Part shown: positions 1 through 12,698 of the stretch, one piece after another
Position numbering within the stretch: the stretch's first letter is position 1
How the letters are laid out: the number at the start of each line of letters is the position of its first letter
Assembly: GCA_013151835.1 (NCBI GenBank)
Contig: JAADHK010000025.1
Location: 1-34,818 of the forward strand
From: Deltaproteobacteria bacterium
GTDB lineage: Bacteria; Desulfobacterota; Desulfobacteria; Desulfobacterales; Desulfosalsimonadaceae
Direction: 5' to 3'
Length of the DNA: 34,818 nt
Translations under genes and position numbers: made by a program
The notes under the pieces: model-generated
Seen by the model: the letters and a program-made list of their open reading frames with translations, nothing else
Database searches by the model: none
Told to the model about the DNA's origin: nothing

Positions 1-309
1 CAACGGTGATTTCAGATTCCGCTGTTTCGCCCAGATCAAGGTCGAGATCGAAATCCTCCTCTTCCGATTCCCCAGCGGCCTCCGTGGCTTCGGCTGTTTC
101 GCCGAGGTCGAGATCGAGATCAAACTCTTCCTCCGCTTCTTGCGCGGGGGTTTCAACGGCTTCGGCTGTTTCACCGAGGTCAAGGTCGAGATCAAACTCT
201 TCCTCTTCAGTGGACCCGCCAACGGTGATTTCAGATTCCGCTGTTTCGCCCAGATCAAGGTCGAGATCGAAATCCTCCTCTTCCGATTCCCCAGCGGCCT
301 CCGTGGCTT
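1..309. repeat. 219-bp direct duplication inside the acidic repeat gene
   Basis: Bases 1-90 recur at 220-309 without a visible difference, giving a unit of 219 bp or 73 codons. The unit encodes FDLDL-type acidic modules. The match is broken at about 310, where the extra base lies. A perfect, in-frame, 73-codon duplication indicates recent expansion, and it is also a place where short-read assembly could fail. Confidence 0.8.
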
Positions 310-312
310 CCC
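1..312 (-). CDS. Out-of-frame continuation of the acidic repeat protein (open at the left edge)
   Basis: If one base is skipped near 311, the minus strand reads on to base 1 without a stop as the same EEFDLDLDLGETAEA-type repeat (for example ATEAAGESEEEDFDLDLDLG). The copy at 81-103 and the copy at 300-323 are nearly identical except that the second has one extra base: cttcggctg versus cttcccgctg on the plus strand. The simplest reading is that the gene is longer than the 844 residues visible in the first frame, with either a real frameshift or a sequencing/assembly error inside a repeat. The C-terminus of the protein is outside the window. Confidence 0.7.
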
Positions 313-2789
313 GCTGTTTCGCCGAGGTCGAGATCAAGATCAAGATCAAACTCTTCCTCTTCCGATCCCTCGGCAGCCTCCGTGGTTTCGGCTGTTTCTT
401 CGAGATCGAAATCATCGCCTGCGATCAGGGTCTCAGCGGCAGGCTCTTCCTCGCCCTCCACGGTGACGCCTTCGGCATCGAAATCGAGATCAAACTCATC
501 CTCCGCCTCTTGCGCGGGGGTTTCAACGGCTTCGGCTGTTTCGCCGAGGTCAAGGTCGAGATCAAACTCTTCCTCTTCCGATTCCTCAGCAGCCTCCGTG
601 GCTTCGGCTGTTTCTTCGAGATCAAGATCAAACTCTTCCTCTTCTTCTTTGGCGCCTGTTACCGGTGTTTCCTGCTCATCGACAAGGTCCAGATCAAATT
701 CATCCAGATCCAAATCAAGACCAAGGTCCGAATCATCGACTTTCAGGGTCTCGGCAGCCTCCCCCGCTTCTTCTTCCAGGTCCAGGTCGAATTCTTCATC
801 CCCTGGTTTTTCATCCCTGGTAAGCCGGGGTTTTTTGCTGTCCGGTTTTTTCCCTTCGTCTGCCAATTCGGCTAATAAACCTCCTTTCGTTTCGATTTCT
901 CTTTGCTCAACCCCTTTTATATCGTCAGGCTGAACGCCCCCATCCACTTCAAAAATATCTTCAGCCGCCGCTTCCTGCTCGGCAAGCGCATCTTCCTCGG
1001 CGAGGATATCGTCTAAATTGAATTCCTCCTCATCAATATCAAGCAATTCACCGTCATCAACGGTCAGTTCCCCGATATCCTCAATGCCGAGGATATCTTC
1101 TTCCGCTGCAGTGTCGTAGCCGGCAGCGGATTCACCTTCTGCGGTTTCGGTTAACAGCTCATAACCGGCAGCGGATTGGCCTTCCGCAGTTTCGGTCAAA
1201 AGCTCGTAACCAGCCTCGGACCTGCCTTCCAGCACATCCAAACCGATTACTTCTTCTGTCTCGACCGTTTTGAGCATGGCCGAATCAATGTCCGCAACGG
1301 TTTCACCTTCCCATTCCGCCGGTGTTTCAAGAGTCTCCAGGCCAATGATATCCTCTTCATCTTCACCCGCAGCGGCGTCGGCATCATAACTCGTGACGGA
1401 TTCACCCTCTGCGGTTTCGGTCAAAAGGTCGTAACCGGCCCCATCACCTCCCACGGATCCGCCTTCGAGCATATCCAAGCCGATTATTTCTTCTGTCTCG
1501 ACCGTTTTGAGCATGGCCGAATCAATGTCCGCAACAGTTTCACCTTCCCATTCCACGGCATGGGTATCACCTTCCCATTCCGCCGGTGTTTCAAGAGTCT
1601 CCAGGCCAATAATATCCTCTTCATCTTCATCCGCAGCGGCGCCGGCATCATAACTCGTGACGGATTCGCCCTCTGCGGTTTCGGTCAAAAGGTCGTAACC
1701 GGCCCCATCACCTCCCACGGATCCGCCTTCAAGCATGTCCAAACCAATTACTTCCTCCTCCTCGGCTGATTTGAGCATGGCCGAATCGATGTCCGCAACG
1801 GTTTCACCCTCCCATTCCACGGCGTGGGTATCTCCTTCCCATTCAGCAGTATGGGTGTCTCCTTCCCATGCTGACGATGTTGTGAGGGTTTCCAGGCCAA
1901 TGACTTCTTCTTCCTCTTCATCCACAGCGTATCCGGCATTGTAATCCGCGACGGATTCACCCTCTGCGGTTTCTGTAAGGAGGTCGTATCCGGTAGCGGA
2001 TTCGCCTTCTGCGGTCTCGGTCAAAAGCTCGTAATCCGCGACAGACTCTCCCTCCGCTGTTTCCGTAAGGAGCTCATAATCAGCGACAGACTCTCCCTCG
2101 GCGGTTTCGGTCAAGAGGTCGTAACCAGCCTCGGACCCGCCTTCAAGTGCATCCAGGCCGATAACTTCTTCTCCGGCCTCGACGGTTTGGGTTGAAAGGT
2201 CGTCGAGCCCTATGATGTCAGGCTCTTCAGGAGTGTCAATTGCAGTAATATCCGTTATAGTAATATCAGGGGTGACAACATCGGAATGGGGGGGGGCTGC
2301 GGCTTCATCAGGCGTTTGGGCTGAAGGCTCTATTGCTTCTTCGTCTTCTTCATCTTCAAAAAAGTCGTCGGAATCCTGGGTTGTTCTTCTGATTTCCCGG
2401 TCGAATTCTTCCAGTTCCGGTCCTACTTCGGAAAACCAGTCATCCTCTTCTTCTTCCTCTTCCAAAAGGTCGAGGGCTTCCACCGTTGCCGCAAGCTCAT
2501 CCGTATCCTCATTAAATGCATCTTCTTCGTCTTCGGCAAAAATGGCATCAAGTTCTTTTTCCGTTTCTACGACTTCTTCTTCCGCCTTGTCGCTAAGCGT
2601 ATATTCAACTCCGGCCGGGGCGTCGGAAGCTATGGCGGCAGCATCAGCGGGCTGTTGGGCATCAGTGGTTTCAGGGGATACCATGAAAACATGCTGGCAG
2701 TTTGAACAACGAACCATTGAACCTGACGGATTCAAGAGGCCGGCCTTTAATGTATAACTCGTGCCGCATGCCTCGCAGGTTACGATCAT
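255..2789 (-). CDS. MJ0042-type zinc-ribbon protein with long acidic tandem repeats (frame broken near its 3' part)
   Basis: As read, 844 residues. The N-terminus is an MJ0042/zinc-ribbon finger with ligand pairs at C5/C8 and C28/C31. The rest is extremely acidic, has no membrane segment or signal peptide, and is built of modules: about eight copies of a LLTETAEGES unit, eight or nine of an (E/D)(V/I)IGLxxLE unit, three of WEGETVADIDSAMLK, and a C-terminal series of EEFDLDLDLGETAEA units. An RBS (GAGG, spacing 8) precedes the ATG at 2789. It lies 17 bases after hpt and probably shares its transcript. The last 18 or so residues (after residue 826) leave the repeat pattern because of a +1 shift near base 311, and the stop near 255 looks artefactual or mutational. 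MJ0042 fingers occur in deltaproteobacterial regulatory and motility-linked proteins. A scaffold or metal/partner-binding role here is inference only. Family assignment is strong; function is unknown. Confidence 0.85.
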   Translation of the reverse strand: MIVTCEACGTSYTLKAGLLNPSGSMVRCSNCQHVFMVSPETTDAQQPADAAAIASDAPAGVEYTLSDKAEEEVVETEKELDAIFAEDEEDAFNEDTDELAATVEALDLLEEEEEEDDWFSEVGPELEEFDREIRRTTQDSDDFFEDEEDEEAIEPSAQTPDEAAAPPHSDVVTPDITITDITAIDTPEEPDIIGLDDLSTQTVEAGEEVIGLDALEGGSEAGYDLLTETAEGESVADYELLTETAEGESVADYELLTETAEGESATGYDLLTETAEGESVADYNAGYAVDEEEEEVIGLETLTTSSAWEGDTHTAEWEGDTHAVEWEGETVADIDSAMLKSAEEEEVIGLDMLEGGSVGGDGAGYDLLTETAEGESVTSYDAGAAADEDEEDIIGLETLETPAEWEGDTHAVEWEGETVADIDSAMLKTVETEEIIGLDMLEGGSVGGDGAGYDLLTETAEGESVTSYDADAAAGEDEEDIIGLETLETPAEWEGETVADIDSAMLKTVETEEVIGLDVLEGRSEAGYELLTETAEGQSAAGYELLTETAEGESAAGYDTAAEEDILGIEDIGELTVDDGELLDIDEEEFNLDDILAEEDALAEQEAAAEDIFEVDGGVQPDDIKGVEQREIETKGGLLAELADEGKKPDSKKPRLTRDEKPGDEEFDLDLEEEAGEAAETLKVDDSDLGLDLDLDEFDLDLVDEQETPVTGAKEEEEEFDLDLEETAEATEAAEESEEEEFDLDLDLGETAEAVETPAQEAEDEFDLDFDAEGVTVEGEEEPAAETLIAGDDFDLEETAETTEAAEGSEEEEFDLDLDLDLGETAGSHGGRWGIGRGGFRSRP
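1272..1960. repeat. Long coding tandem repeat, unit 237 bp (79 codons), one copy extended to 264 bp
   Basis: The string gagcatggccgaatc begins at 1272, 1509 and 1773, so the spacing is 237 and then 264 bp. The 27-bp difference is one extra nine-residue WEGDTHAVE unit. Each copy carries WEGETVADIDSAMLK, an IGLxxLE element and a LLTETAEGES element in fixed order. Lengths stay divisible by three, so expansion has been selected to keep the frame. Confidence 0.8.
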
Positions 2790-2806
2790 TTTATGTCCTC
2801 GCTGAT

Positions 2807-3325
2807 TTAAAATTTCAGGTCATAAATTGCCGGCAGATTTCTGTATTTTCCCGAATAGTCCAGGCCAAAGCCCACCAGAAACCCGCTTGCGACCGAATGG
2901 CCGATATAATCTGTCCGGCACTCGACTTCCCGACGCTCTTTTTTGTCAATAAAGGCGCATACCTTCAAGCTTGCGGGTCCCATTCTTTCCAAGGCCGGCA
3001 GGATATTGACGATGGTCTTGCCGGTATCCAGAATATCTTCCACGAGCAGAACATCTTTGCCTCTGATGTCCGTATTCATTTCACAAGATAAAGTTATTTT
3101 CCCGCAGGATGTGTCGCCGGTTCTGTAACTTGAAGCCCATATGAAATCAATTTCCACCGGCACGGTCAGTTCCCGCGCCAGGTCCGCCAGGAAAACAAAC
3201 GCACCTTTTAAAACGCCGATTAAAACAAGCTGCCTGCCATTGTAGTCATGTGAAATCTGATGTGCAAGAAATTTAACCTTTTTGTGGATTTCTTCCTCGG
3301 TCAGGACAGGGATAAATTCAGGCAT
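2807..3325 (-). CDS. hpt: Hypoxanthine phosphoribosyltransferase
   Basis: 172 residues, normal for bacterial HPRT. It transfers the phosphoribosyl group of PRPP to hypoxanthine (and usually guanine) in cytosolic purine salvage. The PRPP-binding loop is clear at residues 92-104 (VLLVEDILDTGKT), and the early GVLKGA loop (residues 37-42) fits the family. The ATG at 3325 has a GGAAGA sequence nine bases upstream. The next gene, the MJ0042 acidic repeat protein, follows after 17 bases, so the two are likely co-transcribed, though no functional link is evident. Confidence 0.95.
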   Translation of the reverse strand: MPEFIPVLTEEEIHKKVKFLAHQISHDYNGRQLVLIGVLKGAFVFLADLARELTVPVEIDFIWASSYRTGDTSCGKITLSCEMNTDIRGKDVLLVEDILDTGKTIVNILPALERMGPASLKVCAFIDKKERREVECRTDYIGHSVASGFLVGFGLDYSGKYRNLPAIYDLKF

Positions 3326-3425
3326 ATTTATATTCTTCCGAATACGTTAAAACCGGGCATGAGTCGTTTTTTTCTGTTTACACCGAAGATCGGCTTTTGT
3401 CAATAAATTTAAAGCATTCCTTTAT

Positions 3426-3571
3426 TGACGAACTTGTAAAAAGTCCGCCAACCGGCAAGGGCGCTTCTCTTCCCACCTGCGGGCATGGCCAGAACTATCC
3501 GTATTTGTTGTGCATGACTGATGGCCTGGACCCCTTCCCAGTCGAGTAAAAAGGCGTTTTTATTGATGAGA
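3426..3571. repeat. Degenerate inverted-repeat element fragment downstream of the J-protein gene
   Basis: This 246-base gene-free stretch (3326-3571) holds one recognisable sequence, ttgacgaacttgtaaaaagtc at 3428-3448. It matches the terminal repeat of the element at 4545-4720 (consensus ttgaYg-n3-tcgtaaaaagtc). The sequence after it also resembles that element (gccaaccgg versus gcaacccgg). A possible degenerate opposite end lies near 3545-3571. A 60-codon minus-strand reading frame here is not believed to be a gene. Confidence 0.45.
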
Positions 3572-4510
3572 TTACAAGCCGGTTTTCGCAAGTTCTTTTA
3601 TGAGTTTTTTTTGTTTTTCGTTCAAAGACCCGGGAATCATCTCATTTATCACCACGTAAAGATCGCCGGCGCCCCGTCCCTTCATCCTGGGCAGGCCCTG
3701 CCCGGGGAGTCGCAGTTTTTTTCCGTGCCCGGTGCCCGGCGGTATTTTCAGGCTGAGCTGGCTGCCGGAAACCGATGGGATGTTAATACGGGTGCCAAGG
3801 ATCGCCTCGGTCAGCTTTATTTCACGCTCAAGATAAAGGTCATGCCCCTCGACCCGGTAAACAGGATCCGGAATCAATCGCGCACGGATATACAAATTCC
3901 CCGTGGGCCCGCCATGGGGGCTGGGTTCCCCCCGGCCGCCTATTCGGAGCTTTTTGCCGGTAACCATCCCTTTCGGGATTTTTATTGTAAGGGTTTCAGT
4001 CTGTCCTGAAGGTCTTGTAATGGTTATTATTTTTTCTGTTCCAGTCACCACGTCACTCAAGGCGAGAGGGATTTCGTATTCTAAATCCTGGCCTTTTACA
4101 GCCGCATTTTGCCGTCCCCGGCCCCTTAACCCGCCGAATATCGATTCGGGGTTAAATGAAAAATTGCGGGCCGACCCGCGACCTCCTCGGCCTCCGAAAG
4201 AAAAGCTGCCGCCGCCGAACCCGAATTCTTTTAATATATCGCCCATGTCGACGTTTCTGAATATATCTTCCTGGGAAAAACGCTGGTCAAAGCCCTCCGC
4301 GCCGAAGGTGTCATACTGCTTTCGTTTTTCCGGATCACTAAGCACGGCATACGCCTCTGAAATTTCTTTAAATTTTTCTTCATTGGCCGTGTTTCCGTTG
4401 CTGTGGTCCGGGTGATACTTCATGGCCATCTTTCGGTACGCCTTCTTTATGTCATCTGCGGACGCATCCTTTTTCACGCCCAGAACGCTGTAGTAATCCT
4501 TGCCCCCCAT
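3572..4510 (-). CDS. cbpA: Type II J-domain co-chaperone (DnaJ/CbpA-like)
   Basis: 312 residues, the size of CbpA-type J-proteins, which stimulate Hsp70 (DnaK) ATPase and deliver substrates. The J-domain is at residues 1-70 with the HPD signature at 33-35. A glycine/phenylalanine-rich linker follows (about 90-130, with repeated FGG and GRGG), then the two-part DnaJ C-terminal substrate-binding domain with no cysteine zinc-finger, which separates it from DnaJ itself. The GAGGTG RBS and ATG at 4510 are well spaced. It is monocistronic and flanked on both sides by inverted-repeat DNA. No hspR or cbpM modulator is adjacent. The gene symbol is by family type; orthology to E. coli CbpA is not proven. 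Confidence 0.85.
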
Positions 4511-4544
4511 CTCTATTTCACCTCTTTTGTTAAATGCGATTAAA

Positions 4545-4720
4545 GATATTGATGATCTCGTAAAAAGTCAGGCAACCCGGTAAAGATGGCACAAGTAGAA
4601 AGTTCCATATACAAGGCGTAGTGGTGTCGCGAAAGCGGAGGCATACATATAGTAATCCGAGCATTTCGCGACCCGCTACAACGCAGTAGATGGGACTTTT
4701 TACGACGCCATCAAGATATT
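4545..4720. mobile_element. MITE-like element, about 175 bp, imperfect terminal and internal inverted repeats
   Basis: The ends gatattgatgatctcgtaaaaagtc (4545-4569) and gactttttacgacgccatcaagata (4694-4718) are inverted repeats matching at 20 of 25 positions. Inside is a second pair, gtcgcgaaa near 4626 and tttcgcgac near 4664, flanked by further complementary segments, so the whole element can fold into one long hairpin. It encodes nothing convincing. It occupies most of the 309-base gap between cbpA and mnmG. No clear target-site duplication was identified. A non-autonomous element or large REP-type structure is the best reading. Confidence 0.55.
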
Positions 4721-4819: not shown

Positions 4820-6703
4820 TTATCCAAGTTTGTTTTTTGGGGCAGCCTTTAATGCCACCATCATGACGGAAATCGCCGCCGGCGTCATTCCATCGATTCT
4901 TGATGCCCGGCCCAGGGATGCCGGCCTGATCCCGGCAAGTTTTTCCTTTAATTCATTTGATAGCCCATAAACGGCATTAAAGTCAAAGCCGTCGGGGATA
5001 TGGATATTTTCAAGTCGTTTAAACTTTTGGATTTCTTTTAATTGCTTTGAAATATAGCCTTCGTATTTAATCTCTATCTCGACTTGGCGGATTACCCTTC
5101 TATCCATAGGGCTTTTTGGAGGAGCAAATTTTTCAATAAGGTCGTAATCAATGCCGTTTCTCTTGAGCAGGCGGTCCGCATCAATCCCTGTATCGACCGG
5201 CGGTGAGCCGTGGGCTTCAAGGTAAGTATTGAGGCGGGTTGAAGGGGGAAGGGCCGTCTTTTTTATTCTCTTGATTTCTTCTCCTATCCAATATTTTCGC
5301 AGCTTAAGGTCTTCGACTGCGGCTTTTTCCACCAGGCCCAGGGCATGTCCGGTTTCCATAAGCCTGATATCGGCGTTATCCTCCCTTAACATCAGCCGGT
5401 ACTCGGCCCTGGATGTAAACATCCGGTATGGCTCTTTTGTTCCTCTGGTGACCAGATCATCTATCATTACGCCCATGTAAGCCTGTGAGCGGTCCAGGAT
5501 AAAAGGCGGACGTTTCCGGACCGTGCAGGCGGCGTTTATCCCGGCCCAGAGTCCCTGTGCCGCAGCCTCCTCGTACCCTGAAGTCCCGTTGATCTGGCCG
5601 GCGAAAAAAAGGCCCTTGATTTTTTTTGTTTCCAAAGTGGGATGCAGTGTTCTGGGGTTGATATAATCATATTCAATGGCATATGCCGGCCTCATAATTT
5701 CGGCGGTTTCAAGCCCTTCAACCGATCGGACAAGGTCGACCTGTATCTTCTCGGGCAGGCTGTTTCCCAGGCCGCTTGCATAAATTTCTTTTGTATCAAG
5801 GCCCTCGGGTTCGAGAATGACGGGGTGCCGGTCCCGGTCGGGAAACTTTACAACCTTGTCCTCAAATGACGGACAGTACCGGGCCGAAACCCCGGTTACG
5901 TATCCGCCGTACAGCGCGGAATGTTTAAGGTTTTCAGACATGATGCCTATGGTTTTTTTGTTGGTATGTCCCATGTAACTCGGGACCTGGGGCAACTCAA
6001 AGGCGCTGGTAAAACGGGAAAAGGGCCGGGCCGGGCTGTCACCTTCCTGGCGTGAGAATTTTGAAAAATCAATTGAGTCCCTGTGCAGCCTGGGCGGCGT
6101 TCCGGTCTTGAGGCGGGCAATGGAAAAACCGAGGGATTTCAGGTGAACCGAAAGGCCCTCGGATGAAAATTCCCCGGCCCTGCCGGCGCAAAAGGTTTTG
6201 TCCCCTATGTGGATACGACCGGTCAAAAAGGTGCCGGTGGCAAGCACCACCGTTTGGCCCGAAAATCCGTATCCGGTCTGTCCGATCACCCCGGCCGCGC
6301 GGTTGTTTTCAATGATCAGCCGGTCCACGAGGACCTGGCGCACATCTATATTTTTTTCAGATTCTACGGCGAGTTTCATGGCCATGTGGTAACGGACTTT
6401 ATCGTTCTGGGTTCGGGAGCTGTGAACCGCCGGCCCTTTTCGGGTGTTCAATGTCTTGAAATGGATGGCGGAAAGATCCGTTACCCTGGCCATCTCCCCG
6501 CCGAGGGCATCGATCTCTTTTACGAGCTGCCCCTTGGCCATCCCGCCGATGGACGGACTGCACGGCATGGCGGCGATCTTGTCGAGATCAATCGCCAGGA
6601 GCAAAACGCTGCATCCCATGCGACCCGCCGCCAGGGCCGCCTCGCATCCCGCGTGCCCGGCCCCCACCACGATTACATCATAATTTTTATCATAAATGCC
6701 CAT
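4820..6703 (-). CDS. mnmG: tRNA uridine-5-carboxymethylaminomethyl(34) synthesis enzyme MnmG (GidA)
   Basis: 627 residues, full length for the family. With MnmE it installs the cmnm5 group on the wobble uridine of several tRNAs, using FAD and methylene-tetrahydrofolate. The N-terminal FAD-binding motif is VVGAGHAGCEAALAAGRMG (about residues 11-29), followed by the signature PCSPSIGGMAKGQ (about 47-59). The second family signature GTSGYEEAAAQG is in the middle, with the helical C-terminal tRNA/MnmE-binding domain after it. An AGGAAAGG sequence lies 13 bases before the ATG at 6703. The gene stands alone, divergent from the radical SAM gene. mnmE is not in the window. Confidence 0.97.
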   Translation of the reverse strand: MGIYDKNYDVIVVGAGHAGCEAALAAGRMGCSVLLLAIDLDKIAAMPCSPSIGGMAKGQLVKEIDALGGEMARVTDLSAIHFKTLNTRKGPAVHSSRTQNDKVRYHMAMKLAVESEKNIDVRQVLVDRLIIENNRAAGVIGQTGYGFSGQTVVLATGTFLTGRIHIGDKTFCAGRAGEFSSEGLSVHLKSLGFSIARLKTGTPPRLHRDSIDFSKFSRQEGDSPARPFSRFTSAFELPQVPSYMGHTNKKTIGIMSENLKHSALYGGYVTGVSARYCPSFEDKVVKFPDRDRHPVILEPEGLDTKEIYASGLGNSLPEKIQVDLVRSVEGLETAEIMRPAYAIEYDYINPRTLHPTLETKKIKGLFFAGQINGTSGYEEAAAQGLWAGINAACTVRKRPPFILDRSQAYMGVMIDDLVTRGTKEPYRMFTSRAEYRLMLREDNADIRLMETGHALGLVEKAAVEDLKLRKYWIGEEIKRIKKTALPPSTRLNTYLEAHGSPPVDTGIDADRLLKRNGIDYDLIEKFAPPKSPMDRRVIRQVEIEIKYEGYISKQLKEIQKFKRLENIHIPDGFDFNAVYGLSNELKEKLAGIRPASLGRASRIDGMTPAAISVMMVALKAAPKNKLG

Positions 6704-7767: not shown

Positions 7768-7860
7768 TGGCGGAGAGAGAGGGATTCGAACCCTCGAACC
7801 AGGTTTCCCCAATTACTCGCTTAGCAGGCGAGCGCCTTCAGCCAGCTCGGCCATCTCTCC
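7768..7860 (-). tRNA. tRNA-Ser (anticodon GCU)
   Basis: A 93-base class II tRNA with encoded CCA. Acceptor GGAGAGA at the 5' end (7860) pairs with TCTCTCC before the G discriminator. The anticodon arm is CTCGC-CTGCTAA-GCGAG, giving GCU, which reads AGC and AGU. A long variable arm, as expected for serine, precedes the GGTTCGAATCCC T arm. It is transcribed after tRNA-Ser(UGA) and terminated at 7719-7759. Confidence 0.96.
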
Positions 7861-7887
7861 ATGTAACTTCAGGATTTTTTAAATTTC

Positions 7888-7973
7888 TGGCGGAGGGAGT
7901 AGGATTCGAACCCACGGAGCTTTCGCTCAACGGTTTTCAAGACCGCCGCCTTCAGCCACTCGGCCATCCCTCC
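7888..7973 (-). tRNA. tRNA-Ser (anticodon UGA)
   Basis: An 86-base class II tRNA with encoded CCA. Acceptor GGAGGGA (5' end at 7973) pairs with TCCCTCC. The anticodon loop CTTGAAA gives UGA, which reads UCN codons. The variable arm is GAGCGAAAGCTC, a short stable hairpin typical of serine tRNAs. It is separated by 27 bases from the GCU tRNA, so both isoacceptors probably come from one precursor. Confidence 0.96.
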
Positions 7974-8709: not shown

Positions 8710-9381
8710 ATGGAAACCAAACAGGATGTCCTGGAACGTATCCTTTCTCAGGAAAAACCAGTATGTCCGCATTGCAACCGGGAAATGGATATGTGGGAAG
8801 TCCCGCCGATTGCCGTAGGCGACGGGCTCGGATGGGATTCTCCCTACTTATTCGTCTGTTTCAACGATAAATGCCCCCTCTATGTCAGCGGCTGGGACAA
8901 CCTGATGGAAAACTATGCACAGCATGCATCGTACCGGTGCATAAAGAGCCCCAACGACAAGCACTTTGAAATGATGCCCGTTTTTTCATCCATGGGCGGG
9001 CAGGGCCAGGTCGTAAACGAGCAGGTGCTGGCCGATCAGGAAAGGCTTAAAGAATCCATAAAAAAAGGGTTTTCCATCCTGGCGGATTGCTTTGTATCAA
9101 AGGATGTGGTTACGGTGATGCAACTGCTTTTGGACCCGGCCGAATCGGTGCGTGTACGAGTAAAAGCAGCTGAAATGATGGGTGATATTGGTGGTATTGA
9201 CGCAATAGACCTGTTAGCGAGTCACCGTTTTGGCCATGACAGAATTACCGAAATGGCAAAATCGGCCGTGGCCAGAATACATGAGCGTAATTTTACCCGT
9301 GAATGTCCGTTTTGTGCCGAAATCATTAAGAAACGGGCCAATCTCTGCAAGCATTGCGGAAAGGAAGTGGCCGGGGTATAA
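8710..9381 (+). CDS. Zinc-ribbon protein with a HEAT-like central region
   Basis: 223 residues. An N-terminal zinc ribbon has ligand pairs C19/C22 and C50/C55. A central helical part (about 120-190) has HEAT-like character (VRVRVKAAEMMGDIGGIDAI). A second zinc ribbon at the C-terminus uses C199/C202 and C214/C217 (CPFC and CKHC). AAGGA nine bases upstream supports the ATG at 8710. The family appears to be a cytosolic, metal-binding, protein-interaction type; no enzymatic motif is visible. It converges on the CNB-PilZ gene, with a small hairpin in the 51-base gap. Zinc-ribbon calls are strong; the specific role is unknown. Confidence 0.8.
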   Translation: METKQDVLERILSQEKPVCPHCNREMDMWEVPPIAVGDGLGWDSPYLFVCFNDKCPLYVSGWDNLMENYAQHASYRCIKSPNDKHFEMMPVFSSMGGQGQVVNEQVLADQERLKESIKKGFSILADCFVSKDVVTVMQLLLDPAESVRVRVKAAEMMGDIGGIDAIDLLASHRFGHDRITEMAKSAVARIHERNFTRECPFCAEIIKKRANLCKHCGKEVAGV

Positions 9382-9406
9382 GCCAAATTCGCTCGACCTA
9401 CGTAGC

Positions 9407-9423
9407 GGAAGGCTGCGCCTTCC
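9407..9423. repeat. REP-like hairpin between convergent genes
   Basis: GGAAGGC-TGC-GCCTTCC is a perfect stem-loop in the 51-base gap between two convergent stops. The flanking word cgtagcggaaggc recurs inverted at 28645-28668 in another convergent gap. It may serve as a bidirectional transcript end, though no T run is seen. Confidence 0.55.
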
Positions 9424-9432
9424 ATTACCTGC

Positions 9433-10443
9433 TCACGCCCCCTTTATACTCTGAATCAGCTTTTTTTCCATGGGGGTATCAAACTTCAGGTGGATCGAAA
9501 AGTCGTCAAATGCCTGGGACTGAACCGCGATTACCTGCAGGTCTTGTTTTATTGCGACATTGCGGCCCTCCTTCAGCACGAGTTCAAAAGAAACCCTCAG
9601 TCGACGCCCTAAAAGCATCCGGATAGAATCCGGTTTGGATGTTTTTATGAGAAATGACAGCCCGCCCGGGGCAATGTCGGCAAGCTCTCCCTTGAAAGCC
9701 TTGCCCAGAGGCTTCAATGATAAATCCAGAAGCTGGAAAACCATGTTGCCATAAAGGGATATCCGGGAATGCTGCCGACGTTCCATCCCTTTTGATTCCA
9801 GCTCCTGTTTAATCAGGTCTTTTTTAGTGCAGTAATTATAGAGTCTTCCTTCCAGAGCCGGCGTGTCATTTTTCCATTTTTTGAGGGTCGCGGTTTCGAG
9901 AAAGGTTGTCTTTACACGGCCCAGGGCGATGAGTGAGACCGTTGATACGGTGGCTGAGAAAAACTGTTCCTTTCCTATGATGTCGCCGACCCCAAGGGTT
10001 TTGAGAAAAATCTCCTTTTCGCCACTCCTGAAAACGGCCTTTACCTGCCCGTGATTGATGAAAAAAAGGCGATTATCGATACGCCCCTGTTCCATAATGG
10101 ACTCGCCCGCCTCAAAGTCTTGTGATTTCATGGAATAGTAAAGGGCATTCCCCTCTGACGCATTCAGATTATCATACAGGTCCGCCCATATTTCCAGATG
10201 CTGTTTGTCCAGGCTTTCGCTCTTGGCTTCCTCTATGAGTTCCCCTGCGCGCACGATTTCCGTAAGCGCCATTGGATCCACGTCATAGAGTTTTTCACAC
10301 AGGGCCTCGGCTTTGGTAAAATTCTTTTCTTCCGCGTATGCGGTGATCAGATCAAAGAGCACCTTTACGGCCTCGTCGGTCCTGTTTTCCTTAACATGTT
10401 TGGCAACAAGCGCCTCAGCCGCCGCGCGATTTTCCTTTACCAC
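9433..10443 (-). CDS. Cyclic nucleotide-binding-like domain fused to a PilZ domain
   Basis: 336 residues in three parts: helical TPR-like N-terminus (1-80), a CNB (cNMP-binding) beta-roll at about 105-195 (FINHGQVKAVF, GVGDIIGKEQF), and a PilZ domain at about 221-335. The PilZ c-di-GMP motifs are present as ERRQHSR (222-227) and DIAPGG (256-261), a D-x-S-x-x-G type with Ala for Ser. The CNB lacks the phosphate-cassette arginine and has GD rather than GE, so cAMP binding is doubtful while c-di-GMP binding is plausible. The start is GTG at 10443, chosen because AAAGGAGG lies six bases upstream and overlaps the stop of the HEAT gene. Likely a cytosolic signalling adaptor acting with the HEAT protein. 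Confidence 0.85.
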   Translation of the reverse strand: MVKENRAAAEALVAKHVKENRTDEAVKVLFDLITAYAEEKNFTKAEALCEKLYDVDPMALTEIVRAGELIEEAKSESLDKQHLEIWADLYDNLNASEGNALYYSMKSQDFEAGESIMEQGRIDNRLFFINHGQVKAVFRSGEKEIFLKTLGVGDIIGKEQFFSATVSTVSLIALGRVKTTFLETATLKKWKNDTPALEGRLYNYCTKKDLIKQELESKGMERRQHSRISLYGNMVFQLLDLSLKPLGKAFKGELADIAPGGLSFLIKTSKPDSIRMLLGRRLRVSFELVLKEGRNVAIKQDLQVIAVQSQAFDDFSIHLKFDTPMEKKLIQSIKGA

Positions 10444-10457
10444 GGATACCTCCTTTA
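10441..10457 (-). promoter_or_regulatory. Coupled stop / RBS / GTG start between the HEAT and CNB-PilZ genes
   Basis: The minus strand reads taaaggaggtatccgtg: the TAA stop of the upstream gene is part of the sequence that contains the AAAGGAGG ribosome-binding site for the GTG start. Ribosomes ending the HEAT protein sit on the next RBS, which predicts translational coupling and a fixed ratio of the two proteins. Confidence 0.7.
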
Positions 10458-12698
10458 CACTCCCATCCTTTTAATGTTCGCCAGGGCTTTGGCCGCCGCC
10501 TTTCGGACCCGTTCGGAATTGGCGGGCAAGCCAAACAAGCCCTTTGTGCGTACGATTTTTTCTAAAACAGTAATGCCCTGCCTTGCCCCGATACGTCCCA
10601 GCGCCTCGCAAATCTTCTCCTTCAATTCGTCTCTTTCGGATTTTTCCTTCACAACCGAACGATCTTCAAGCATTTTTATGAGCACGGGCACGGCTTCGGG
10701 TGTCTTCATGGCCCCGAGTATTGAAACAATATAGGCCTTGAGACTGTCTTCCACCATTGAAACATGTTTGACAAGAACACTGCCGGCTGTACCTCCGCCA
10801 ATGGACTGGATACTCTTGATCGCCTCGGTTTGCACCCGGGAATCCGAATGGCCGAGCAGTCGTTCCAGGACCACGAAATGAGAGGCATCACCTATCCGGC
10901 CGACCAATAAAACCAGGTTTCGTATATAAAACCAGGGCGCGTCCTGGCGCAACCGTTCGATTATCGGCGGCATCACCGGTTTTCCCATACGGATTAATGC
11001 CTGGACGATGCGGTTCCGCTCGGACATGTTGTGGCTGTCATACAGGCGGTCCAGCAGCCGCTCGACAGTGTTGCTCCCCAGAATTACAAGGGCAAATATA
11101 TCGTCCTTGTTTTTAACCGATTCATTGGATTTTGTTTCCTTTAACAGCAGATCAATGATATCCGCTGTCGCAAGATTTTGCAACATATTACCGGCAAGGG
11201 CCTTAATGGCTTCATCCTTTTTGAGATTCCCGGCCGAAATAAGGTGGTACGCCTCAAGGATGTGTCCGGCCTCATCGGCACGGCCTTCTTCGATCATTGA
11301 CCGGCAAAGTCCCTGGAGCTGGCCGGTAACCTTTTCATACACAGGGGTTACGGTTGTTTCAAACTTGATCCAGTCGGCCAGCTTCTCGGACAGCGCCATC
11401 CGTCTGTCCAGGTCGCCCTCGGCGGCGAGCATTTCATCCATGCTGGAAAAAATGCCGGCCACAGCCTCACGGACTTCGGGATCCTCGTTTAAGAGGGCGT
11501 CACCTATCTTATCCACCAGCCGCTCGACGGCAGGATCCCGGCCCGATTTCATGAGCCGGTTGATGGCATTTGGGATGTCCGCTGCAATTTCTACATCGGT
11601 GAGGGCCGAGGTATCCCCCTTGATAATGCCGTTTAAGGCAGCCTTGAGACGAATCAAACGTTGTGTCGGATCTGCCGAATCGTCATTCTCCCGTCCGTTT
11701 TTATCGACGTGTTCGAGCAGTTGTCTGCCCGGTTCGGTATCTTTGAGCAGGTCATATACCCGCCCGATTGCCTCGGCCTGGTCCTCATCCAGATTCCCGG
11801 ACTCAGGGCTTTCGGCTATCTGTTTGATCCGGCCAAATAAGCTTGAAAATTTTTCAGGGTCCAGTTCCTTGACGAACCGCCTGAAAAAATCCGTTCCAAA
11901 GACCGTCTCCAGATTCTGGGTCAGCACAGAGGTCAGGACCTCATCATCCATTTCTGACATTGAGGATATAATATATTTTGAAATTTCCCGTTTGTCAAAG
12001 TCTGAAATACCGTCCAGGGCATCTATCATGCCGGCAAAGGCCGTGGAAAGATCCGGTTTTGCCTGGGTTTTGGACTTTTCGATTACCTCCTTGACCCCTG
12101 CCTGAAATATCGATGAGAGCCATGCGGGATTCTGCGCAATCTCCTGGAGCTGTTTTGCAACTTCCTCGGATTCAGCCTCCTCACCCATGAGCACCTTTGC
12201 AAAATCGCCGTTTGTAAAATCCATGCCCGCCAAGATGCTGTGATCGGAATCCATTTCAACATAAATCTTTTCATCGATCCGGATATTGGGCATGGAAAAC
12301 TGTTTCACAAGCGCGGCAATCCCTCCGGCGGCAAGAATTTCCCCGGGCGTCTTTCCCAGTATCTGGAGAAATGAACTGATCTCCTTTCTGGTGATCCCCC
12401 GGGTAATGGATACGCTCTTGATTCCCATGTCAAGCATAAGCTCAAGAAAGGCGCTTATCTGTGGTTTTTTCTGTTCCTTTTCCGGAAGAGGCGTACCCTG
12501 CACCAGCAGGGACTTTTCAGATTCGGCATACTCGAGGGTCGTAACCACCGAAAGGGTTTCGGTCAGGACCTTGTACATCCGCTCTACCGAACTCATTATA
12601 ATGGCGCTCGTTGGCGGATAGAGACGGATATTGGTGACGGCCGCATTCATCACAAAGAGAAAGTCAACCGCTTTTTTTGCAGCATTGATGTGTGCCAT
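10455..12698 (-). CDS. Large HEAT-repeat protein
   Basis: 747 residues. The first 130 or so (IRLYPPTSAIIMSSVERMYK, then ITRKEISSFLQIL) resemble the N-terminal domain often found before HD-GYP or HEAT modules in deltaproteobacterial signalling proteins. The middle is long and helical. The last 250 residues are HEAT/armadillo-type repeats (for example VVLERLLGHSDSRVQTEAIK and AVPVLIKMLEDRSV). There is no signal peptide, membrane span or catalytic motif. The ATG at 12698 follows AGGACG. It lies 60 bases after gpmI, perhaps on the same transcript, and is coupled to the CNB-PilZ gene. A scaffold for a signalling pathway is the likely role, by inference. Confidence 0.8.
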   Translation of the reverse strand: MAHINAAKKAVDFLFVMNAAVTNIRLYPPTSAIIMSSVERMYKVLTETLSVVTTLEYAESEKSLLVQGTPLPEKEQKKPQISAFLELMLDMGIKSVSITRGITRKEISSFLQILGKTPGEILAAGGIAALVKQFSMPNIRIDEKIYVEMDSDHSILAGMDFTNGDFAKVLMGEEAESEEVAKQLQEIAQNPAWLSSIFQAGVKEVIEKSKTQAKPDLSTAFAGMIDALDGISDFDKREISKYIISSMSEMDDEVLTSVLTQNLETVFGTDFFRRFVKELDPEKFSSLFGRIKQIAESPESGNLDEDQAEAIGRVYDLLKDTEPGRQLLEHVDKNGRENDDSADPTQRLIRLKAALNGIIKGDTSALTDVEIAADIPNAINRLMKSGRDPAVERLVDKIGDALLNEDPEVREAVAGIFSSMDEMLAAEGDLDRRMALSEKLADWIKFETTVTPVYEKVTGQLQGLCRSMIEEGRADEAGHILEAYHLISAGNLKKDEAIKALAGNMLQNLATADIIDLLLKETKSNESVKNKDDIFALVILGSNTVERLLDRLYDSHNMSERNRIVQALIRMGKPVMPPIIERLRQDAPWFYIRNLVLLVGRIGDASHFVVLERLLGHSDSRVQTEAIKSIQSIGGGTAGSVLVKHVSMVEDSLKAYIVSILGAMKTPEAVPVLIKMLEDRSVVKEKSERDELKEKICEALGRIGARQGITVLEKIVRTKGLFGLPANSERVRKAAAKALANIKRMGV

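Follow-up and report, generated by a model that had tools for sequence, protein, structure and literature searches.

A membrane-linked zinc ribbon protein with a giant acidic repeat arm in Desulfobacterales, a candidate polarity or motility scaffold

Introduction

What kind of protein carries a small zinc ribbon followed by a very long acidic stretch filled with repeated motifs? This question is raised by a minus-strand open reading frame (ORF) at positions 255 to 2789 of a 34,818-nucleotide stretch of DNA from a deltaproteobacterium of the family Desulfosalsimonadaceae. The whole stretch, called the window here, is an entire contig (C17). A preliminary description presented the ORF as a giant modular acidic protein whose four motif families looked like short binding sites arrayed behind a zinc ribbon head. 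The combination of a zinc-binding head, a membrane segment and an outer domain is familiar from bacterial organisers of cell poles, pili and motility, and the arm found here is unusually long. In this study, we examined the extent of the gene, its repeats and its relatives. By analogy with known systems, we propose with a probability of about 0.55 that the product may be a membrane-anchored polarity or motility scaffold that offers clients many weak binding sites along its acidic arm.

Results

Extent of the gene

In the ORF listing, the frame at 255-2789 encodes 844 residues with the zinc ribbon at its start. It covers only part of the gene, and its end at 255 is not natural. The features of the gene within the window are as follows.

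255-2789, minus strand: 844-residue ORF, the N-terminal part of a zinc ribbon-acidic linker-transmembrane (TM)-DUF3426 gene; below 310, the final ~18 codons are out of frame.
2685-2789, minus strand: MJ0042 / Zn_ribbon_4 zinc ribbon, CxxC-X19-CxxC, residues 1-35, from profile matches and predicted fold.
1227-2213, minus strand: IGLxxLE-type zone, 8 copies, residues 193-521; motif class in 33 of 38 orthologs.
1128-2117, minus strand: LLTETAEGES zone with 8 copies over residues 225-554; lineage-specific and absent from all 38 orthologs, it interleaves with the IGLxxLE zone.
1269-1868, minus strand: WEGE/D ... ADIDSAMLK zone (6 WEG[ED], 3 ADIDSAMLK), residues 308-507; lineage-specific, in 0 of 38 orthologs.
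1294-1821, minus strand: two tandem 264-bp units, 92% identical, with a ratio of nonsynonymous to synonymous substitution rates (dN/dS) of 0.22 between the copies.
330-1022, minus strand: FDLDLDL-type zone, residues 590-820, which extends beyond the frame break through window 1-310 and onto contig C48.
1-91, minus strand: exact 91-bp repeat at the assembly break, identical to 220-310 and to C48 6387-6477.
220-310, minus strand: second exact 91-bp copy; the frame breaks at its upper edge, with one extra base near 308-312.
2-310, minus strand: coding continuation in the frame matching C48.

The two exact 91-bp copies in the window, at starts 1 and 220, lie 219 bp apart, and the third copy forms the last 91 bases of C48. 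Spacings between 8-base anchors of 72, 72, 75, 78, 144, 72 and 1449 bp were all divisible by 3. The sole spacing off frame, 73 bp from 240 to 313, spans position 310 and coincides with the upper end of the repeat copy at 220-310. The copy start-to-start spacings of 45, 72, 75, 216, 237, 264, 291 and 825 bp were also divisible by 3, and those of 79 and 298 bp, which both span position 310, were not. The unit lengths of 237, 264 and 219 bp given in the preliminary description were confirmed as copy spacings, all multiples of three.

C48 encodes a 472-residue continuation in the frame matching window 1-310, with further FDLDLDL units followed by a TM segment and DUF3426, and the gene therefore extends beyond the window. 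The stop near 255 is due to one extra base at the edge of the exact 91-bp repeat, and judging from the sequence this one-base break at ~310 is most likely an assembly artefact. If C17 and C48 join directly, the full protein would have ~1,371 residues and a linker of more than 1,000. C48 is tied to the window by the 91-bp overlap and by synteny, which supports the join because relatives have the window genes on one side of the gene and the C48 genes on the other.

A real frameshift at 255 would instead leave a soluble 844-residue zinc ribbon protein with no membrane anchor, which is how the ORF reads as assembled. This is quite improbable, since the single-base break falls at the border of the exact 91-bp repeat with which both contigs also end, and relatives are intact: in 37 of 40 relatives' loci the CxxC...CxxC pattern and DUF3426 lie within a single open frame. 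Among the other three, L044 and L068 contain runs of N and L057 is cut by a contig end. The self-contained soluble protein was rejected because of the position of the break and the intact orthologs. In the best-scoring relative, G009 (L087 / L044), a run of N lies within the linker of the same gene; it is either a scaffold gap, in which case assembly of the array would fail elsewhere too, or a masked stretch.

Domain architecture

The zinc ribbon of the preliminary description was recovered with two profiles, Zn_ribbon_4 (50.9 bits, cut-off 30.3) and MJ0042_CXXC (35.6 bits, cut-off 20.9). DUF3426 (PF11906) was matched on C48 at 32.5 bits (cut-off 27.7). The protein has the parts of a ZitP-like architecture, namely an N-terminal zinc ribbon and a single TM segment followed by a C-terminal DUF3426. 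The membrane anchor and DUF3426 on the other contig change the earlier interpretation of a zinc ribbon-headed array. After the zinc ribbon, residues 46-844 contain ~35% Asp+Glu and 3% Lys+Arg. AlphaFold2, run with nine orthologs, gave block means of 91-94 over residues 1-40 for the predicted local distance difference test (pLDDT), and pLDDT was below 50 for 749 of the 844 residues; the stretch after the zinc ribbon head is predicted to be disordered. These results provide good support, at the sequence level, for an architecture of zinc ribbon, giant acidic disordered linker, TM segment and DUF3426.

Structure searches were performed with both ends. For the zinc ribbon, the PDB gave just two matches at E <0.001, AgmX (7zok) and ZitP (2nb9), both of which are motility or polarity proteins. 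The model of a relative (L088) contained a TM helix and a confident DUF3426 beta-sandwich. A Foldseek search with the DUF3426 model returned no match at E <= 0.001, and VIA-align gave Z of at most 8.0, with GH2 glycosidase beta-sandwich domains at the top and Wzt carbohydrate-binding domains lower. This likeness of the predicted fold appears to be the common immunoglobulin-like arrangement, and no functional meaning is drawn from it. A plasmid search with the region gave no match.

Repeat motifs

All four motif families of the preliminary description were present, far above residue shuffles. The 844-residue ORF contains 8 copies of LLTETAEG[EQ]S, 8 of IGLxxL[ETS], 6 of WEG[ED], 3 of ADIDSAMLK and 8 of F[DN]L[DE][LFED]. 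Against residue shuffles of the same sequence, LLTETAEGES was observed 8 times vs 0.00, strict IGLxxLE 6 times vs 0.01 and FDLDLDL-like motifs 5 times vs 0.01. The plus strand at window 3-875 also has long antisense frames (290 residues and others) opposite the repeats, which are probably shadow ORFs from the biased composition rather than genes.

Conservation of the motifs was then divided between the families. Across 38 ortholog loci, that is the 40 loci without L044 and L068 (dropped for their N runs) and with the N-terminally cut L057 kept, FDLDL-like motifs were observed 132 times vs 0.9 expected and were present in 28 loci; IGLxxLE-like motifs were observed 89 times vs 6.7 expected and were present in 33. 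LLTETAEGES and WEGETVADIDSAMLK occurred in 0 of the 38 loci and for this reason look like products of local tandem duplication. The order of the two recurring classes was also compared. IGLxxLE-like motifs precede FDLDL-like motifs in 18 of 18 same-family proteins (18 of 20 loci used; L044 and L057 dropped). Outside the family, where 34 of 81 loci were used after excluding N runs, proteins with no zinc ribbon start, duplicates and linkers below 300 residues, this order was found in just 7 of the 12 proteins having both. The fixed grammar proposed for the four families therefore stands for two motif classes within the family and not outside it.

Linker length and selection

Among 75 distinct sequences, including the N-terminally cut L057, the part from the TM segment to the end measured 164-220 residues vs 31-974 for the linker, which was shorter than 200 residues in 20 of them. 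Such a linker could be a neutral acidic spacer that drifts in length between two working ends, with repeats that are slippage products of low-complexity DNA. The absence of two of the four motif families from the 38 orthologs, the recent tandem copies (the 92% identical 264-bp units and the exact 91-bp copies) and the loss of motif order outside the family agree with this explanation. However, linker dN/dS (Nei-Gojobori) was 0.105-0.351 in 8 of 10 ortholog pairs, with the other two pairs saturated and three more having dS above 1, and copies inside the window compared with each other gave 0.103-0.265, from few changes and overlapping units. The recurrence of two motif classes with fixed order in the family also speaks against a neutral spacer, as does a linker that stays long within the family: 24 of 26 frames have at least 600 residues, and of the remaining two, one meets a stretch of N (G009) and one lies on a 4,426-base contig (G004). 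We consider the neutral spacer unlikely.

The linker values are near those of the TM segment and DUF3426 (dN/dS 0.108-0.299, Nei-Gojobori). Within the linker, residue class was conserved at 92-94% for hydrophobic, 85-92% for acidic and 79-93% for small/polar positions. Ortholog pairs and loci are mutually related, and these counts are not independent events. The substitution ratios indicate that the linker is under purifying selection, though its length and copy number vary. Free drift of the motifs does not describe these data, because two classes recur, their order is kept in the family, linker dN/dS is low and the hydrophobic class is conserved. An array of binding sites rather than plain low complexity, as described before, is consistent with the predicted disorder, the two recurring classes and the linker dN/dS; for LLTETAEGES and WEGETVADIDSAMLK, which the orthologs lack, this part of the description was not supported.

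The charge of the arm could also serve to bind metal or to buffer divalent cations at the membrane, given the proportion of Asp+Glu to Lys+Arg reported above. In linkers of at least 200 residues, however, hydrophobic residues occurred at 0.44 of expectation at +1, 1.55 at +2 and 1.18 at +4 from one another, and plain metal binding has no need of such hydrophobic/acidic alternation. Metal binding is a very improbable explanation of the arm.

Distribution and neighbouring genes

The C-terminal part was matched in 91 of 116 relatives' genomes, with two copies in 5 of the 91, and DUF3426 was present in 192 of 297 genomes of the phylum. With the protein query, the median length of DUF3426 frames was 859 residues in the same family (26 rows) and 633 in other families of the order (69 rows); with the Pfam profile it was 349 outside the order (141 rows, among the matches listed). 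Most of the 61 named loci were labelled Desulfobacteraceae, Desulfobacterales or Deltaproteobacteria, and a few belonged to other groups; cultured isolates that have the gene include Desulfosarcina widdelii (L109) and Desulfoluna spongiiphila (L133).

The gene order in relatives is mnmG-dnaJ-hpt, then the gene, then tRNA-Met. The neighbours in the window are as follows.

2807-3325, minus strand: hpt (hypoxanthine phosphoribosyltransferase), conserved neighbour, 17 bp upstream of the gene.
3572-4510, minus strand: DnaJ/CbpA-like co-chaperone, conserved neighbour.
4820-6703, minus strand: mnmG (gidA), conserved neighbour.

The 40 fetched loci contained Hpt in 37, the zinc ribbon in 36, DnaJ in 33, MnmG in 27 and the DUF3426 part in 39; the fetched stretches vary in length, and a missing neighbour may sit outside the stretch. 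L065 and L076 have atypical zinc ribbon patterns and gave no zinc ribbon match in the neighbourhood scan. On the other side of the gene, the nearest protein gene of C48 (ORF 4303-4701) was present in 26 of the 40 loci. Of 11 relatives scanned, 10 had tRNA-Met, which C48 carries as well.

The conservation of this order, with Hpt and DnaJ in most loci and the gene beginning 17 bp after hpt, raises the alternative that the protein works with its neighbours (DnaJ/CbpA, Hpt, MnmG and tRNA-Met) in proteostasis or translation, the arm being a membrane-tethered solubility or chaperone-like brush. The neighbours, however, are housekeeping genes with no relation to one another, and their order may simply be that of an old operon; the zinc ribbon and DUF3426 point to ZitP-like proteins. 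We give a role in proteostasis or translation little probability.

Elsewhere in the window, an adjacent tRNA-Ser pair (gct, tga) lies on the minus strand at 7768-7973. Three consecutive genes at 8710-12698 encode a zinc ribbon protein with a weak HEAT match (8710-9381), a cyclic-nucleotide-binding and PilZ protein (9433-10443) and a large HEAT-repeat protein (10455-12698).

Candidate partners

The genome that holds the window has three Zn_ribbon_4 matches and encodes two MglA-like GTPases, on contigs C120 and C136. The second zinc ribbon protein, which has a HAMP domain, is encoded near an MglA-like GTPase, and in 9 of 10 relatives examined the two genes are likewise close together. The order of this cluster (L008, G000:C120:20000-26500) is a first ORF that we read as roadblock-like, the MglA-like GTPase, two ORFs, the zinc ribbon and HAMP protein, an ORF without Pfam match, and a response regulator with DUF4388. 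The third zinc ribbon (L007, G000:C80:22000-26000, at 1798-3647) is joined to a receiver-like domain (25.0 bits, below the cut-off of 30.2) and adjoins a PilT-like ATPase. Because the other zinc ribbon genes adjoin mglA or the PilT-like ATPase, a GTPase or pilus partner for the ribbon of the window protein is plausible, no more.

Binding of MglA by the zinc ribbon of GltJ is an idea for which we found no supporting paper. A literature search on zinc ribbon/MglA binding (GltJ, AgmX, Myxococcus) returned no paper on the subject, and one on zinc finger, transmembrane and polar localization in the Desulfo/MglA context returned nothing relevant.

Discussion

Domain order, gene order and selection on the linker were read directly from the sequences; the scaffold mechanism proposed here is modelled on ZitP and HubP/FimV. 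In this model, a bitopic scaffold protein would sit in the inner membrane, with the repeat region as its arm on the cytoplasmic side. Its zinc ribbon may dock on a polarity or motility partner, perhaps an MglA-type GTPase where PopZ is undetected, and the periplasmic DUF3426 may recruit or anchor envelope machinery. The disordered arm would present many weak, similar binding sites and so raise the local concentration of soluble clients at the membrane position of the scaffold. No one motif would be decisive; binding would depend on avidity, which would explain the conservation of motif class and charge despite variation in copy number and exact sequence.

Several observations weigh against a polarity or motility scaffold. 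The gene's own neighbours (hpt, dnaJ, mnmG, tRNA-Met and ddl) are housekeeping rather than motility genes. An MglA-like GTPase was found in 57 of 60 genomes, and its presence is weak evidence because it is near-universal in them. Motif order loosens outside the family, and this assembly does not fix the true number of repeat units. Linker identity was no higher for hydrophobic than for acidic residues (0.88/0.88, 0.77/0.78 and 0.76/0.77), and class conservation alone was higher. For ZitP, W35, K18, R24, R27 and R34 are named for PopZ binding (PMC5182065); the window protein has L18, S24, R27, V34 and F35, with R27 alone kept.

Much is known about polarity hubs in Caulobacter, Vibrio and Myxococcus. 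A widespread and usually single-copy protein would be a concrete organiser candidate in relatives in which no PopZ was found (0/60). Linkers of 31-974 residues between the same two ends also form a natural series suited to testing a multivalent disordered arm. As a tentative and rather doubtful extension, one protein might serve as both adaptor and hub in Desulfobacterales in which no PopZ was found: a ZitP-type membrane adaptor with its own giant multivalent acidic client-recruiting arm, acting as a self-contained pole or septum scaffold. Motif units added or removed in frame would tune it over evolution, and a small GTPase would steer it via the zinc ribbon.

Comparison with known systems

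ZitP of Caulobacter has an N-terminal zinc ribbon at 1-37, a TM segment at 106-127 and DUF3426 at 128-245 (PMC5182063, PMC5182065). Its ribbon binds the polar protein PopZ (PMC5182063, PMC5182065) and is needed for PopZ-dependent localisation and efficient motility, and its DUF3426 is required for pilus biogenesis (PMC5182063). The window protein has the same CxxC-X19-CxxC ribbon, single TM segment and C-terminal DUF3426 in identical order. By the coordinates in these sources, the linker of ZitP between residues 37 and 106 has ~68 residues, whereas the long-linker proteins have hundreds to more than 1,000. ZitP proper is further marked by its bipolar localisation. PopZ (PF10691) was matched in 0 of 60 genomes searched, the window's own genome included, with a positive Caulobacter control. 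Because no PopZ was found and the PopZ-binding residues mostly differ, the protein is ZitP-like in build, and membership in ZitP proper was rejected.

HubP/FimV proteins also have a TM anchor and a very long acidic unstructured cytoplasmic region. HubP further resembles the window protein in its variable repeat number; its acidic repeats differ in number between close species (PMC12918733). In contrast, the acidic arm of HubP/FimV is C-terminal to the TM segment and that of the window protein N-terminal, and the window protein has the zinc ribbon and DUF3426 in place of the periplasmic LysM of HubP/FimV and the C-terminal TPR domain of FimV. LysM and FimV TPR gave no Pfam match in the window part or the C48 part, and HubP/FimV membership was rejected for lack of both. 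A FimV_core search found 0 of 60 genomes, but the control genomes were also without a match.

AgmX is a Myxococcus gliding protein and is the same as GltJ (PMC3169522). It has a related N-terminal zinc ribbon (7zok_A, E 4.5e-4). GltJ membership was rejected, as NF033761 scored 17.7 bits vs a cut-off of 450 over residues 1-68 only, in a scan of the window part.

The DUF3426 literature that we found concerns ZitP, and the MJ0042 literature found contained nothing on a long-linker protein. Short zinc ribbon-TM-DUF3426 proteins of other deltaproteobacteria (e.g. L110, L113 and L122) have the same three ends with a short linker and are likely direct relatives. The zinc ribbon-TM-DUF3426 build is known; what appears to be new here, judged from sequence comparison, is its combination with a giant, selected and probably multivalent acidic arm.

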